Below are positions 16,940 through 37,993 of a DNA stretch of 37,993 nucleotides, one piece after another. The translations under genes and the position numbers were made by a program. A model generated the notes under the pieces. That model was given only the letters and a program-made list of their open reading frames with translations. It was not told the origin of the DNA and made no database searches. How positions within the stretch are numbered: position 1 is the first letter of the stretch; the number at the start of each line of letters is the position of its first letter. This DNA comes from SAR116 cluster bacterium AG-426-B08. GTDB taxonomy: Bacteria; Pseudomonadota; Alphaproteobacteria; Puniceispirillales; Marisalimonadaceae. The stretch lies in the NCBI GenBank assembly GCA_003213175.1, contig QCNN01000009.1, positions 1-37,993 of the forward strand, read 5' to 3'.

Positions 16940-18163
16940 AATTTAAGACTCAATACTTGCAACAACCCCTGCACCTACAGTTCGACCACCTTCTCTAATA
17001 GCAAATCTCAATCCTTCATCCATTGCTATTGGTGATATTAACTCCACCGTCATGGCAATATTGTCACCCGGCATTACCATCTCTGTTCCAGATGGTAACT
17101 CCACTGAACCTGTTACATCTGTTGTTCTAAAGTAAAATTGTGGACGATAATTACTAAAAAATGGTGTGTGTCGCCCTCCTTCTTCTTTAGTTAATACATA
17201 AGCCTCAGCTTTAAACTTTTTAAACGGCTTAATTGATCCAGGTGCAGCTAACACCTGACCTCTCTCCACTTCTTCCCTTTTTGTACCTCTTAAAAGAACA
17301 CCAACATTATCTCCAGCTTCTCCCTGATCCAATAATTTACGGAACATTTCAACACCAGTACATGTGGTTTTTGTAGTATCTTTTAAACCAACAATCTCTA
17401 TTTCTTCTCCTACCTTAACCACACCTCTTTCAATTCTTCCTGTAACAACAGTTCCTCTACCAGAAATTGAAAAAACATCTTCAATAGGCATTAAAAAAGG
17501 CTGATCTTTAGGTCTTTCTGGTTGTGGTATATATTTATCAACTTCTTCCATAAGAGATGTGATTGACTTTATACCGATCTCTTCATCACGACCTTCTAAA
17601 GCAGCTAAAGCACTACCCTTGATAATAGGTATATCATCTCCAGGAAATTCATAACTAGTTAGTAATTCACGTATCTCCAACTCAACTAATTCAAGAAGCT
17701 CTGCATCATCAACTTGGTCAACTTTATTTAAATAAACAACCAAAGCTGGCACCCCAACTTGACGGGCTAATAATATATGCTCTCTTGTCTGAGGCATAGG
17801 ACCATCGGCAGCATTAACAACTAGTATCGCACCATCCATTTGTGCTGCTCCAGTAATCATGTTTTTAACATAATCAGCATGACCTGGGCAATCGACATGC
17901 GCATAGTGCCTATTTTCAGTTTCATATTCAACGTGCGCTGTTGAAATTGTAATGCCCCTTTCTCTTTCTTCAGGAGCTTTATCTATCTGATCATAAGCAG
18001 AAAATTCAGCACGACCAGCATCTGCCATAACTTTTGTAATAGCAGCAGTAAGTGTTGTTTTCCCGTGATCAACATGTCCAATTGTACCAATGTTTACATG
18101 GGGTTTGCTGCGATCAAATTTCTCTTTAGACATCTTTAAAACCTTTCAATCTATTAAGTTTAC
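16940..18163 (-). repeat. tuf long direct repeat, copy B
   Basis: This is the partner of 1073-2296, identical over 1,224 bases as far as I can read. Upstream of tuf it keeps 30 bases of the fusA-tuf junction, including the fusA stop codon, although no fusA gene is present here. That shows the direction or limit of copying: the sequence originated in the str operon and was pasted or converted between the tRNA-Tyr and tRNA-Trp genes. Confidence 0.93.
16943..18133 (-). CDS. tuf: Elongation factor Tu, copy 2 (between tRNA genes)
   Basis: This second copy of EF-Tu encodes a 396-residue protein identical to that of the str-operon copy, with the same P-loop [18 protein letters not shown] and NKVD motifs. 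Its context corresponds to tufB of other proteobacteria: it is flanked by tRNA-Tyr upstream (41 bp) and tRNA-Trp downstream (12 bp), then secE. Having two loci raises EF-Tu dosage and puts one copy under a tRNA-type promoter. Keeping two identical copies is notable for a genome that otherwise looks compact. Confidence 0.99.
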
Positions 18164-28367: not shown

Positions 28368-29280
28368 ATGAAGAAATATAATCAAATTCAAAATAGGACA
28401 TATGAACTATTAGCTCGAGGTTCTGCTAAAGACTTACAAAGTTTGATCGTAGACATTTTTCTTTTTGTTTTAATTTTATTAAATGTAACTGCAGTTTGTC
28501 TGGAGTCAGTTAAATTAATTAGAGAAAGTTATTCAACTTCATTTCTATATTTTGAAATATTCTCAGTCATAATTTTTTCTATTGAATATATTTTAAGAGT
28601 TTGGTCAGCTCCCAGTCAAAAAAACCAAAGTTTCAAAGTCTGCTTTTAAAAAAAGATTAGGTTATATTTTTAGTTTTACAGGAATAATTGATTTAGCTGC
28701 TATCCTCCCATCTATTTTACCAATTTTCTTTGGTGGATTAGATCTCAGGTGGCTCAGAGTTTTAAGACTTTTAAGACTCCTGAAAATTTCTAATTATTCT
28801 TCTGCTTTAGAAGATTTTTTTTCAGCTATCAAGGAAGAGTGGCAATCATTTAGTGCTGCTTTATATTTAATTTTGATTGCCTTATTTTTATCTAGCTCAT
28901 TAATGTACATCGCTGAACATGAAGCTCAACCAGATAATTTTAGTTCTATCCCAGAGACGATGTGGTGGGGACTTATAACACTTACTACAGTTGGTTATGG
29001 AGACGTTTCACCGGTAACCCCACTTGGAAAAATTATTGGAGCTTTTACTGCCATAATGGGAGTTTGTACTGTTGCATTGTTGACTGGAATTGTTGCTACA
29101 TCTTTTTCAAATCAAAGGTCCAGAAAAGCTGCGATGTTTGAAGCAGAAATTAATGAGGCGCTTAAAGATGGTTTTATTTCAGATGATGAAGCAAAAAAAA
29201 TTGAAGAACTAAGAAAAAAATTAAACCTTTCTGAGGAGCATTCAAAGTCTTTAATTGATTTAATGTCAGATAAAAAATAA
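28368..29280 (+). pseudogene. Voltage-gated-type potassium channel, frameshifted at an A7 run
   Basis: Two open frames (28368-28649 in one frame; from about 28621 to 29280 in the next) together encode one six-helix K+ channel of about 303 residues. The first has S1-S2 and ends after VWSAPSQK. The second continues KTKVSKSAFKKRLGYIFSF, S3, the voltage-sensor-like S4 LRWLRVLRLLRLLKI, S5, the pore helix with selectivity filter TTVGYGD, S6, and a charged C-terminal coil. The break falls in seven A residues (28618-28624); six would restore one frame. All else is intact, so this may be an assembly or sequencing error, a very recent mutation, or slippage-rescued expression. No partner gene is evident. 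Confidence 0.85.
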
Positions 29281-31450: not shown

Positions 31451-31864
31451 ATGATTAAAATTAGCAGAATTTCTTCTCCTTTAAAAGAAAAAATCAAAAA
31501 TGTTGATACTTGTTCTCAACTAGATGGCGATGGTTTATTTGAAGGAAAATATACTACTACAGGAACAGTACTTTTAAGAAATGGTTTTGTGGGAAGTTTA
31601 ACATCAGATCAAACCATTGTGGACTCTAATGGTAATTTTGATGGCGACTTATCCTGTTCTGAACTTATTATATCAGGAACTGTTAATGGCAAAATAAAAG
31701 CTGATAGTATAATCATAATGGAAACTGGTAAAATTTCAGGTGATATAAGTTACAAGCAAATTGCTGTTTTTGAGGGTGGTATTATTGACGTGGCTGGTAT
31801 GAAGCCACACAATGATACAAAATCTGATAAAGTTATTGAAATACCAAAAAAATCTATTAGCTAG
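31451..31864 (+). CDS. Bactofilin (polymer-forming cytoskeletal protein)
   Basis: Bactofilins assemble into nucleotide-free filaments at the inner membrane and place wall-modifying enzymes or organise curvature and stalks. The 137-residue protein is a short right-handed beta-helix: repeated hydrophobic-glycine rungs such as GDGLFEGKYTTTGTVLLRNG, GNFDGDLSCSELIISGTVNG and GKISGDISYKQIAVFEGGII (about 24-117), with short disordered ends. No transmembrane segment is seen. Unlike many bactofilin genes it is not beside an M23 peptidase. The 153 bp upstream gap (31298-31450) contains no convincing promoter pair and no Shine-Dalgarno. Confidence 0.85.
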   Translation: MIKISRISSPLKEKIKNVDTCSQLDGDGLFEGKYTTTGTVLLRNGFVGSLTSDQTIVDSNGNFDGDLSCSELIISGTVNGKIKADSIIIMETGKISGDISYKQIAVFEGGIIDVAGMKPHNDTKSDKVIEIPKKSIS

Positions 31865-34326: not shown

Positions 34327-34332
34327 TGAGTC

Positions 34333-34669
34333 GAGAGAGCTATGTAGTTGCTATGTATTAGAGGAAAGTCCGGACTCCACAGAAAAAAAGTGCTGGATAA
34401 CTTCCAGCGGGGGCAACCCTAGGGAAAGTGCAACAGAAATAATACCGCCATGATTTTGGTAAGGGTGAAATGGTGTGGTAAGAGCACACCGCGTTTATAG
34501 CGATATAAATGGCAGTGCAAACCCCACTTGGAGCAAGACCAAATAGAAGAAACAATAAGTTTTTCTGCTTAGTTTCTTGGGTGGGTCGCTAGAAAAACTT
34601 GGTAACAAGTTTTCGAGATGAATAACTACAATCATATAATGATACAGAATCCGGCTTATCAGCTCTCTC
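34333..34669 (+). ncRNA. rnpB: RNase P RNA (class A)
   Basis: Catalytic RNA that matures tRNA 5' ends. Recognised by its universally conserved pieces in order: GAGGAAAGTCCGGACTCC (about 34361-34378), GGGGCAACCC, AGGGTGAAATGGTGTGGTAA followed by GAGCACACCG, GGCAGTGCAAACCCCAC, GGAGCAAGACCAAATAG, GATGAATAACTACA, and ACAGAATCCGGCTTA near the 3' end. The terminal helix P1 is a perfect 9-bp pairing of GAGAGAGCT (34333-34341) with AGCTCTCTC (34661-34669), which sets the ends. About 337 nt, somewhat shorter than in E. coli. No U-rich intrinsic terminator follows, so the mature 3' end probably comes from processing. Confidence 0.97.
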
Positions 34670-34704
34670 ATAAATTTTTAACAAAAGTATAAAATTTTAA
34701 TTTT

Positions 34705-34738
34705 CCCATTGACACCCATAAAAACCCATGTTATCCCA
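34705..34738 (+). promoter_or_regulatory. Four CCCA boxes (10-bp period): probable MraZ operator over the mraZ promoter
   Basis: CCCA occurs at 34705-34708, 34715-34718, 34725-34728 and 34735-34738, a period of exactly 10 bp. Read on the minus strand these are four TGGG repeats separated by 6 nt. MraZ of E. coli binds TGGGN direct repeats separated by 5 nt, that is, the same 10-bp period, upstream of its own gene. A TTGACA (34709-34714) and a TTATCC/TATCCC at 16-17 nt spacing (34731-34737) interleave with the boxes, so a bound protein would block RNA polymerase. Together they imply that mraZ represses its own operon. Confidence 0.75.
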
Positions 34739-34778
34739 TTTATTTAAATAAGATTTGAGGTTTCTCGGTAATTAATCA

Positions 34779-35240
34779 ATGTTTCTATCAACCTCACATA
34801 ATAAAATAGATAAGAAAGGCAGAGTATCCGTTCCTGCCACATATAGAAATCAACTGGAAATTGAGGGAGGTTCATTAATTTTATTTCAAAGTTTACAATT
34901 TAAATGTTTAGAGGGAACAACTGTAAAAAGAATGAAGCAATACATTGACGCTATAGATGACCTAGATGCTATGTCTAATGAAGCATCAATTTTAAGAATG
35001 ATGATGGCTGATTCATTTGAACTAAAATATGATAGTGAAGGAAGAGTGGTTGTACCAGACAAATTACTTTCTTTTGCTAAGATAAAAAATACTGCTGTAT
35101 TCATGGGGATTGGTAGGTCTTTTTTGATATGGTCTGATGTAGAATATAAAAACCAATACGATAAAACTCAAAAAATACTTAGTAAAAGTGGTCCTCCAAA
35201 ATTGATTTTAAAAGCTAAGAGAAGTCAAGTTGATGATTGA
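34779..35240 (+). CDS. mraZ: Transcriptional regulator MraZ
   Basis: DNA-binding protein with tandem AbrB-like (SpoVT-type) domains that forms a ring-shaped oligomer and controls the dcw operon. In the 153-residue protein the two half-domains are clear: N-terminal HNKIDKKGRVSVPATYR (about 7-23) and C-terminal DSEGRVVVPDKLL (about 86-98), each with the DxxGRVxxP signature. It is the first gene of a plus-strand operon; its TGA is inside the start of rsmH. The CCCA boxes 40-75 bp upstream are its probable operator. No Shine-Dalgarno stands at the usual distance; a GAGG lies about 20 bp upstream. Confidence 0.95.
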   Translation: MFLSTSHNKIDKKGRVSVPATYRNQLEIEGGSLILFQSLQFKCLEGTTVKRMKQYIDAIDDLDAMSNEASILRMMMADSFELKYDSEGRVVVPDKLLSFAKIKNTAVFMGIGRSFLIWSDVEYKNQYDKTQKILSKSGPPKLILKAKRSQVDD

Positions 35241-36180
35241 TAATGAGATAACACATATACCTGTTCTTATTAATCAAATTATGTATCAAATTAAAGATAT
35301 TAAAAAAGGTCTTTGGATAGATGCAACCTTTGGATTAGGGGGTTATAGTCGATCATTTTTAGAAAATACTAATTGTAATGTTTTTGCCATTGATAGAGAT
35401 CCAGATGTGAAGAAATATGCTAATACTTTAATAAAAGAATTTAAAAATAGATTTGAGTTCAAGTCTGCTAAATTTTCTGACTTAAATAAATTTACACATT
35501 TAAAAAATGTTGTTGGAATTTCCTTTGATCTTGGATTATCGAATTTACAAATTAAAAAATCAGATAGGGGATTTTCCTTTAAACATAATGGTCCATTGGA
35601 TATGAGAATGTCAAAATCTGGATTAAAAGCCGAGGATTTTTTAAAAAATGTTGATGAAAAAACTCTTGCAGATATCTTGTTTGAATTAGGTGATGAGAGG
35701 CATTCTAGAAAAATTGCAAAAGCAATATTTAAGGCAAAAAGAGAAAGCAATATATCTTCGACTTTTAAATTAGCAGAAATTGTTAGAAAAGCTGTGCCTG
35801 GCAACAAATTTAAAATTGATAAAGCAACGAAAACTTTTCAGGCAATTAGGATGTTTTTAAATGACGAATTAAAAGAATTAAATAAAGGATTAATTGCAGC
35901 AGAAAAAATTTTACAACCAAATGGATTACTTGTTGTTGTTTCATTCCACTCTATCGAAGACAGAATAGTTAAAAATTTCTTTTCATTATGTTCTGGAAAA
36001 TCTAAAAGTTTTTCTAAGTTTTTTCCGGAAGATAAAAGAAACAAAAGTTTTGAGATATTAACAAAAAAACCTTTAGTTCCTACACAAGAGGAAATTTATA
36101 ATAATCCTAAATCAAGATCTGCTAAACTTAGAATAGCAATTCGAACCTCGTCAGATCCAGTCCACGAGGTAGCAGCATGA
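35233..36180 (+). CDS. rsmH: 16S rRNA (cytosine1402-N4)-methyltransferase RsmH (MraW)
   Basis: SAM-dependent methyltransferase that modifies C1402 in the ribosomal P site. The ATG at 35233 is chosen over a TTG one codon earlier, giving 315 residues that start MIDNEITHIPVL, the family N-terminus. The SAM motif is WIDATFGLGGYSRSFL (about 28-43), and the following acidic residue is seen in VFAIDRDPD. Conserved RsmH segments DMRMSKSG, TFQAIRMFLNDEL and VVSFHSIEDRIVKNFF (about 232-247) are all present. It overlaps mraZ by 8 bases and ftsL by 4 (ATGA), so the three are translated as a unit. Confidence 0.97.
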   Translation: MIDNEITHIPVLINQIMYQIKDIKKGLWIDATFGLGGYSRSFLENTNCNVFAIDRDPDVKKYANTLIKEFKNRFEFKSAKFSDLNKFTHLKNVVGISFDLGLSNLQIKKSDRGFSFKHNGPLDMRMSKSGLKAEDFLKNVDEKTLADILFELGDERHSRKIAKAIFKAKRESNISSTFKLAEIVRKAVPGNKFKIDKATKTFQAIRMFLNDELKELNKGLIAAEKILQPNGLLVVVSFHSIEDRIVKNFFSLCSGKSKSFSKFFPEDKRNKSFEILTKKPLVPTQEEIYNNPKSRSAKLRIAIRTSSDPVHEVAA

Positions 36181-36473
36181 TACGTTATCCATCAGTCTTT
36201 TGGTTTTTTATCATTCTGATTTCTGGGATTTTTATTTACGAAATTAAAAACTTAATAATTCTTAAAGAAAAAAGAATATTAAGTTTAGAACAGCAAATAA
36301 ACATTACAAAAGACAAAATCAAGTTATTTAATGCAGAATTTTCTTATTTATCACGTCCAGAGAGGATAGAACAAGTAGCATTAAATTTATTAGGTATGAA
36401 AAAAATTTTACCGATTGATATTTGGGATATTAGAGATTTATCAACCACGGAAACAAATGAAGATTTTAATTAA
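36177..36473 (+). CDS. ftsL: Cell division protein FtsL-like
   Basis: Small bitopic membrane protein of the divisome; FtsL with FtsQ and FtsB activates septal wall synthesis by FtsWI. The 98-residue product has a short cytoplasmic N-terminus, one membrane span (about 5-22), a heptad-rich coiled coil (about 28-60, ILKEKRILSLEQQINITKDK) and the C-terminal YLSRPERIEQVALNLLGMKK typical of alphaproteobacterial FtsL. The start overlaps the rsmH stop. FtsB/DivIC-like proteins are similar, but the position after rsmH favours FtsL. Normally ftsI would follow; here ftsZ does after 32 bp. Confidence 0.85.
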   Translation: MIRYPSVFWFFIILISGIFIYEIKNLIILKEKRILSLEQQINITKDKIKLFNAEFSYLSRPERIEQVALNLLGMKKILPIDIWDIRDLSTTETNEDFN

Positions 36474-36505
36474 AAAATTTTTATTAATTAAAGAGGAGAT
36501 CAAAA

Positions 36506-37993
36506 ATGACCCTTAACTTATCTATACCTTCAATTCTAGAAAACACTCAACCAAAAATCTCGGTCATTGGCGTGGGAGGAGCTGGCTGCAATGCTGTAAA
36601 TACAATGATTAATGCAAATGTTTTAAATGTTGACTTTATGGTTGCAAATACAGATGGACAAGCTCTGTCAAGAAGTCTCACAAAAAAACAAATACAATTA
36701 GGTAAACATTTAACCTCTGGTCTAGGAGCAGGATCTGACTCTCAAATAGGAGAACAAGCTGCTCTTGAATCATTAGATGAAATTATTTCTGAAATTGGAG
36801 AAATAAATATGTTGTTTATAGCAACAGGAATGGGTGGAGGTACAGGTACTGGTGCCTCACCAATAATCGCTCAAGCAGCAAAAGATAAGGGAATTTTAAC
36901 TATAGCAGTAGCTACCAAGCCATTTGATTTTGAGGGTAAAAAAAGAATGGAAACAGCTGAAGAGGGGTTAAAAAAATTAAAAGAAACAGTTGATACTATG
37001 ATAGTAATTCCAAATCAAAACTTGTTTAGAATTGCAAATGAAAAAACAACTTTTGCTGAAGCTTTTAAATTAGCAGATGATGTTTTATATGAGGGAATCT
37101 CTGGTATAACTGATCTCATCACTTCTCCTGGAATGATAAATTTAGACTTTTCTGATATCAAAACAGTAATGAAAAACATGGGTAAAGCAATGATTGGAAC
37201 TGGTGAAAGTTCAGGAGAAGGAAGATCTCAAAAAGCCGCAGAAACTGCTCTCAACAATCCTTTATTGGACAATACATCAATTAATGGAGCTACTTCAATT
37301 TTATTAAATATTAAGGGAGGACCCGATATGGGGCTTCTGGAAGTTGATGAGGCTGCAAGCTTAATAAGAGAAAAAGTAGATGAAAATGCAAATATAATCT
37401 TTGGTACTTCTGTGAACGAAGAATTGGATGGTATTATAAAAGTATCAATTGTTGCAACAGGAATAGACGGTACAAAATTTAATCTTGTTAAACAAAATGA
37501 AAAAGTAGCTACTAATGAATTAGATGATAAACCTAAAGATAATGATAGTTCTACTTTTAATAAAAATGAAAATTATTCAAATAAAACTATGGATGTTGAT
37601 AATTCAGAACAAATTGATATAGAAACAAAAATTGCTGATTTAGATAGTAATGATGATGAAATATATAACAAGAACCCAATCAATGAAAAAACTGACCCAT
37701 CAAAAGATTTAACTTCTTTGGACGCCCTAGAGGATAAAAAGAAAGAGTTATCTGAGATAATAAATAACAATAAGATAGATAACGAAGAAATTAACGTCAA
37801 AGAAAATACTTTTTTAAAAAAAATATCTGGCTTATTTCAAAACCAAAAAAAGGATGAAATTGCAAATGAAAAGAAAATTGATCCATCAATTTATTCTTTG
37901 AATTCTGAGCAAATAAAATTAAAGGAGGATGAAATGAATGAAAAAAATACCCCATTTCTCAAGCTTACTGAAGAACCAAACGAGGAAAAAATT
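36506..37993 (+). CDS. ftsZ: Cell division GTPase FtsZ (partial, 3' end outside window)
   Basis: Tubulin homologue that forms the Z ring. The frame is open from ATG 36506 to the window end (496 codons). AAGAGGAG lies 7 nt upstream of the start. The GTPase core covers about residues 15-325: ISVIGVGGAGCNAVN (18-32), the tubulin signature GMGGGTGTGAS (108-118) and the T7 catalytic loop NLDFSDI (212-218), so it should be active. From about residue 325 onward there is a hydrophilic Asp/Asn/Lys/Glu-rich linker of at least 170 residues; the C-terminal peptide that would bind FtsA or other membrane anchors lies beyond the window. It immediately follows ftsL, with no ftsA or ftsQ before it. Confidence 0.97.
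   Translation, partial: MTLNLSIPSILENTQPKISVIGVGGAGCNAVNTMINANVLNVDFMVANTDGQALSRSLTKKQIQLGKHLTSGLGAGSDSQIGEQAALESLDEIISEIGEINMLFIATGMGGGTGTGASPIIAQAAKDKGILTIAVATKPFDFEGKKRMETAEEGLKKLKETVDTMIVIPNQNLFRIANEKTTFAEAFKLADDVLYEGISGITDLITSPGMINLDFSDIKTVMKNMGKAMIGTGESSGEGRSQKAAETALNNPLLDNTSINGATSILLNIKGGPDMGLLEVDEAASLIREKVDENANIIFGTSVNEELDGIIKVSIVATGIDGTKFNLVKQNEKVATNELDDKPKDNDSSTFNKNENYSNKTMDVDNSEQIDIETKIADLDSNDDEIYNKNPINEKTDPSKDLTSLDALEDKKKELSEIINNNKIDNEEINVKENTFLKKISGLFQNQKKDEIANEKKIDPSIYSLNSEQIKLKEDEMNEKNTPFLKLTEEPNEEKI

Follow-up and report, generated by a model that had tools for sequence, protein, structure and literature searches.

The division and cell wall (dcw) cluster of gamma- and alphaproteobacteria is among the highly conserved gene orders of Bacteria, and in its canonical form ftsZ lies between ftsA and lpxC; in E. 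coli this distal ftsZ relies on internal promoters. Here we analyse a stretch of DNA from SAR116 cluster bacterium AG-426-B08 (the window, 37,993 bases, which is the entire contig C9 of assembly G000), in which ftsZ is found immediately after ftsL, close to the mraZ end of the cluster. We regard it as close to certain that ftsZ alone has been relocated, from the interval between ftsA and lpxC to the position behind ftsL, and that the block of mur genes did not move.

The transcriptional regulator MraZ has been studied in two systems that bear on this arrangement. In Neisseria elongata, deletion of mraZ lowered five downstream genes (mraW to murF) and overexpression of MraZ raised the first seven genes of the cluster (PMC9395523), and in M. 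genitalium ftsZ goes up without MraZ (PMC8475190). How the order of dcw genes relates to the dosage of FtsZ is the question underlying the idea of "genomic channeling" (PMC8475190, PMC5089854), as far as the available portions of these three papers go.

The position of ftsZ in the SAR116 clade

The 5' end of the alphaproteobacterial dcw cluster, mraZ-rsmH-ftsL, is present in the window and is joined directly to ftsZ, within which the contig ends. A preliminary description made from the sequence alone had named and placed these four genes correctly, as judged by matches to Pfam and NCBIfam profiles, and its 32-bp gap between ftsL and ftsZ, with a Shine-Dalgarno sequence for the latter, is likewise confirmed. 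The features are as follows:

34705..34738, + strand: four CCCA repeats (TGGG on the opposite strand) with a 10-bp period, MraZ-box-like, with a putative function
34779..35240, + strand: mraZ, dcw transcriptional regulator (Pfam MraZ, 3.9e-20)
35233..36180, + strand: rsmH (mraW), 16S rRNA methyltransferase (Pfam, 3.7e-87; TIGR00006, 284 bits, cut-off 154)
36177..36473, + strand: ftsL (NCBIfam FtsL_COG5462, 54.3 bits, cut-off 50)
36474..36505, + strand: 32-bp spacer between ftsL and ftsZ with the Shine-Dalgarno sequence GAGGAG (36493-36498), the site of the relocated gene
36506..37993, + strand: ftsZ, 496 codons, 3' end lost at the contig end (Pfam Tubulin, 1.1e-46; FtsZ_C, 5.3e-34)
34332..34674, + strand: RNase P RNA, class A (Rfam RF00010, 311 bits), the upstream neighbour, outside the change

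The window FtsZ also scores 394 bits against TIGR00065 (cut-off 295) and is the single ftsZ match in its genome. Compared by FtsZ, the closest relatives bearing a name are SAR116 cluster bacteria, which places the genome among the SAR116 alphaproteobacteria. Two of the smaller proteins stay below the cut-offs of some profiles: mraZ remains under the cut-off of the NCBIfam MraZ models (best 115.5 bits against 162), and FtsL reaches just 17.3 bits against Pfam DivIC, under the cut-off of 28.9.

The place that ftsZ has vacated is visible on other contigs of the own genus (g1, comprising G000, G001 and G002). Contig C16 of the own assembly opens with 22 codons, IDLRDKNKIIFQPLIKPLNIVQ and a stop, similar to the end of FtsQ in the genus mate G001, and continues with ftsA-lpxC-bamD. 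In G001 (59% complete), contig C18 carries murD-ftsW-murG-murC-murB-ddl-ftsQ-ftsA-lpxC-bamD. On both contigs ftsA is followed by lpxC instead of the canonical ftsZ, and the interval between them is devoid of ftsZ. The sister genus (g3, 13 genomes, 10 with ftsZ) supplies the other side of the join: all 10 ftsZ loci exhibit the order mraZ-rsmH-ftsL-ftsZ-ftsI, with ftsI as the new downstream neighbour of ftsZ. The run extends at least to ddl on 8 of these 10 contigs and to ftsA on 6, and ftsA adjoins lpxC in six sister-genus loci as well as in both loci of the own genus. Genes of the surveyed loci take their names from the best phmmer hit within a small reference set of proteins, which leaves small or diverged genes unlabelled; those of the sister-genus locus L046 were named with NCBIfam.

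The other SAR116 genera examined retain mraZ-rsmH-ftsL-ftsI-murE-murF-mraY-murD-ftsW-murG-murC-murB-ddl-ftsQ-ftsA-ftsZ-lpxC. The pair ftsA-ftsZ was found in all 19 loci fetched from elsewhere in the order (14 from genus g2, one from g4, one each from families f2 and f4, and two from f3) and in 26 of 26 named SAR116 contigs, whose genomes partly overlap with those 19. Another 42 ftsZ loci, from other bacteria, include 29 with this pair and none with ftsZ adjoining ftsL or ftsI, although distant small proteins may be unlabelled there. A conserved element of about 28 nucleotides, approximately GAAATATTTRGTAAYTAWATKTGATTTG, precedes lpxC whether or not ftsZ stands in front of it, in most of the rows compared:

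L189, about 1337-1402; L057, 11054-11153; and relatives: conserved sequence upstream of lpxC

It is possibly the lpxC promoter. Since this stretch survives in the old and the new gene order alike, ftsZ left its old position cleanly. The preliminary description had considered, as one of two alternatives, that the block of mur and fts genes was excised and relocated; a relocation did take place, but ftsA-lpxC without ftsZ, together with ftsL-ftsZ-ftsI, identifies ftsZ as the only gene that moved.

Parallel moves and the question of MraZ control

To assess how rare such a move is, an even sample of 139 genomes was taken across the class, the own genome included. RsmH and FtsZ were found over their cut-offs in 134 of them, on the same contig in 105; four RsmH rows below the family cut-off were left out. 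In 95 of the 105 genomes ftsZ lies 13-25 kb downstream of rsmH, and only in G000 itself does it lie within 0-5 kb. Three genomes have ftsZ just upstream of rsmH; in the remainder it lies at 5-13 kb (two), farther away (two) or on the opposite strand (two).

The three genomes with ftsZ upstream share the order mraZ-ftsZ-rsmH: G067 and G181 of family f11 (L210, L211) and G143 of family f87. The order of G143 comprises 58 genomes, 55 of them with ftsZ, and mraZ-ftsZ-rsmH was found in all 30 best-scoring ftsZ loci, each from f87 (L222-L251), and in all 15 longer regions (L254-L268), nine of which add new genomes (3 of f87 and 6 of family f125). This amounts to 39 of 39 genomes examined of the 55 with ftsZ, the other 16 lying outside the sample. 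None of the five regions in which both ftsA and lpxC are labelled (four from this order, one from f11) has ftsZ between them, and CCCA boxes with a period of 10 precede mraZ in 33 of 33 loci from 32 genomes (three boxes in 25, two in 8). Members of the order are small AT-rich alphaproteobacteria; their size (1.0-1.5 Mb) and a GC content of 26% in L209 suggest that the order may be SAR11 (Pelagibacterales). The order of G143 reached the same end of the cluster independently of the SAR116 clade. The FtsZ of f11 branches separately from that of f87 and f125 (in a tree rooted at its midpoint), and therefore ftsZ has moved to the MraZ-proximal end at least twice, perhaps three times.

In the window the pattern of four CCCA repeats has a single match, compared with none in 100 dinucleotide shuffles, and the same four repeats occur in 9 of the 10 sister-genus loci, the tenth having three within the stretch read. 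They resemble the consensus of MraZ boxes; their position upstream of mraZ is a trait of MraZ-regulated operons. TTGACA sits between the first and the second box and could be a -35 element. Counted from the mraZ promoter region, the relocated ftsZ is the fourth gene (the second in the order of G143), so that its transcription would follow MraZ feedback, while ftsA remains distal. That the relocated ftsZ is under MraZ feedback may be put forward tentatively, as a proposal somewhat more apt to fail than to hold. Three observations weigh against it: a sigma-70 scan of the + strand found nothing at the boxes; a separate Shine-Dalgarno sequence serves ftsZ in both gene orders; and MraZ-type boxes also precede mraZ in canonical SAR116 relatives, hence the boxes are not new and only the position of ftsZ is. 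A sigma-70 promoter spanning the boxes was considered and rejected, with 10 promoter-like matches in the region, fewer than the shuffle mean of 17.4.

The strongest competing explanation holds that the relocation was neutral and had no regulatory effect, because ftsZ travels with translation signals, and possibly a promoter, of its own. The Shine-Dalgarno sequence present at old and new sites alike speaks for it, as does the tolerance of shuffling in tight clusters transcribed from one strand, while the rarity of moves in the class survey and the recurrence of moves to the same end speak against it, neither of them decisively. We consider its chances to be evenly balanced.

The start of ftsA was also inspected. 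In all nine sister-genus genomes whose ftsA 5' end is readable, the frame has no ATG, GTG or TTG from the preceding stop codon to the ATP-site motif DIGNSK, and an ATT at codon -12, preceded by a Shine-Dalgarno sequence (AGGTG or a close variant), is conserved in all nine:

L046, 18124-18200; same place in L056, L145, L146, L147, L149, L151, L152 and L193: ftsA 5' end with ATT

To judge from these sequences, sister-genus ftsA is likely to begin at AUU. Such start codons are very rare (infC). A truncated FtsA had been suspected from a 384-aa open reading frame lacking DIGNSK, and was rejected because the frame is open upstream and the conserved ATT gives the full length. The start is ATG in 14 of 14 g2 genomes, in g4 and in the own genome, and TTG in G001. 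A general link between a moved ftsZ and a weak ftsA start was discarded in view of these last two and of 13 regions from f11 and the order of G143: six of the regions have a readable FtsA start, ATG each time, and seven gave none. In three f125 loci (L259, L260, L263) FtsA has AIDIRSDK or AIDIRADK at the first phosphate motif, where other FtsA proteins have DIG or DLG.

A broader scenario would be that small-genome marine alphaproteobacteria (the SAR116 clade, the SAR11-like order of G143 and perhaps f11) repeatedly moved ftsZ into the first MraZ-controlled genes, so that MraZ feedback at one promoter, rather than distal promoters, sets the supply of FtsZ, and that one SAR116 genus also lowered FtsA by means of an AUU start. 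In this full form it is speculative and rather unlikely.

Descent of ftsZ and the fate of the wall genes

Maximum-likelihood trees group the own and the sister genus with support of 100/99 for FtsZ, 100/100 for RsmH and 91/94 for FtsA. A widened FtsZ tree, rooted at its midpoint, also took in family f11, the order of G143 and eight contigs from other alphaproteobacteria. The possibility that ftsZ was replaced instead of moved, by a foreign copy that entered behind ftsL before the old one was lost, could draw on the long branches of the own FtsZ and RsmH rows; in the widened tree, however, FtsZ of the two genera stays within its SAR116 family, with support of 100/100, and within the order, with 96/94, which renders a foreign origin improbable. 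The simplest explanation of gene order and trees is one move of ftsZ, in an ancestor shared by the two genera. Genus g4 is placed differently in the FtsZ and FtsA trees.

The preliminary description had also noted that ftsQ and ftsA are missing here, likened the order to the minimal cluster of Mollicutes and offered, as its other alternative, loss of the peptidoglycan synthesis genes. Absence of the mur and fts genes from the organism is not confirmed, and the loss is contradicted. The window is a whole contig that ends in ftsZ, from an assembly of 93 contigs and 1.47 Mb that is 51.66% complete; FtsA (TIGR01174, 269 bits) and the tail of FtsQ are on contig C16; and it is the end of the contig that creates the likeness to Mollicutes. 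The search of the genome and its relatives suggested at the time found, in the own assembly, PBP2 (525 bits, curated cut-off 455) on contig C31 adjoining RodA (370 bits, cut-off 336.7), a PBP1A-family protein on C43 (599 bits, cut-off 508.75) and MreB on C44 (525.6 bits, cut-off 293), besides FtsA; it did not find a Mur ligase, FtsI or FtsW there. The two genes on C31 had been labelled ftsI and ftsW by best phmmer match, and were reassigned to PBP2 and RodA by the curated cut-offs.

Loss of wall synthesis could draw on the order mraZ-rsmH-small gene-ftsZ in the window and the absence of Mur ligase matches in G000 and G002 (52% and 77% complete). Against it, the own genome has PBP2, RodA, the PBP1A-family protein, MreB, FtsA and lpxC, G001 has murD to ddl, and Mur ligase matches occur in 57 of 61 relatives, including 24 of 24 genomes with a completeness of at least 90%; the four that lack a match (G000, G002, G032 and G050) are all 52-77% complete. 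These wall and division proteins, the murD-ftsA run of G001 and the mur/fts block behind ftsZ in the sister genus are the reasons to conclude that peptidoglycan synthesis has not been lost in this lineage, and we hold the contrary to be very improbable. Least credible of all is an assembly chimera at the ftsL-ftsZ join, conceivable in so fragmented an assembly with a contig end inside ftsZ, because 10 of 10 ftsZ-bearing sister-genus assemblies share the neighbourhood and, correspondingly, own C16 and C18 of G001 have no ftsZ in the interval from ftsA to lpxC.

We infer that C9 and C16 are the left and right ends of one cluster whose middle is an assembly gap, and that the wall genes apparently lost most likely lie in this gap, just past the end of C9. 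The middle measures 13.1 kb from the ftsI start to the ftsQ stop in L046, and the unassembled one would be about 13 kb if it is like that of the sister genus. Several points count against the account as given. Within the own genus the ftsL-ftsZ join is visible in the window only: neither ftsZ nor rsmH was found in the 59%-complete assembly of G001, and ftsZ, ftsA, rsmH and Mur ligases were all not found in that of G002 (77% complete). The own 52%-complete assembly yielded no Mur ligase, FtsI or FtsW and shows only the ftsQ tail of the ftsI-mur-ftsW-ddl-ftsQ block, and the ftsI-to-ddl part of this very species is deduced from relatives. The FtsA support of 91/94 falls below the star threshold of the tool, and the own row is flagged as a long branch in the FtsZ, RsmH and FtsA trees. 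The explanation as a whole (a relocated ftsZ, a middle hidden by a gap, an ordinary divisome in which FtsA would anchor FtsZ and FtsL would act with FtsQ, FtsW and FtsI, and a presumed control by MraZ) nevertheless appears highly probable.

Elsewhere in the window, a gene for bactofilin, a cytoskeletal protein (Pfam PF04519), lies at 31451-31864, within a few kb of the dcw cluster on its upstream side. An ion-channel gene at 28368-29280 is split over two frames (Pfam Ion_trans, 28368-28649; Ion_trans_2, 28873-29280), with an open stretch joining the second frame, by a frameshift that is either real or a sequencing error. Two tuf genes (1076-2266 and 16943-18133), which flank the rpoBC/ribosomal block, are identical in 1191 of 1191 bases, likely through ordinary gene conversion.

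Comparison with known dcw clusters

Neither these moves of ftsZ nor an AUU-started ftsA is described in the titles or abstract openings among the matches listed, the literature searched holding only a minority of subscription papers. Within the literature searched, and as far as the searches go, the relocation is new as a gene order, its parts being ordinary. What has been removed is a supposed wall-less free-living alphaproteobacterium; what remains is a clade-specific change in a highly conserved bacterial gene order, and two natural rearrangements with an MraZ-proximal ftsZ allow the order of dcw genes to be set against FtsZ dosage.

Compared with the canonical gamma- and alphaproteobacterial cluster, the sister genus has the same content, from mraZ to lpxC on one strand, and the same order except for ftsZ, which follows ftsL and not ftsA. 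The Mollicutes cluster mraZ-mraW-MG_223-ftsZ, in the part of its description available (PMC8475190), is matched by the window taken alone, which likewise reads mraZ, mraW, a small gene and ftsZ. However, the small gene here is ftsL, the cluster continues in relatives, and the own genome carries genes for wall synthesis (PBP2, RodA and the PBP1A-family protein), in contrast to a Mollicutes-type genome without peptidoglycan synthesis genes. The order mraZ-ftsZ-rsmH-ftsL-ftsI of families f87, f125 and f11 is similar in having an MraZ-proximal ftsZ and CCCA boxes before mraZ, but differs in that ftsZ already stands between mraZ and rsmH, one step earlier, and in that its FtsZ proteins occupy separate branches of the tree.

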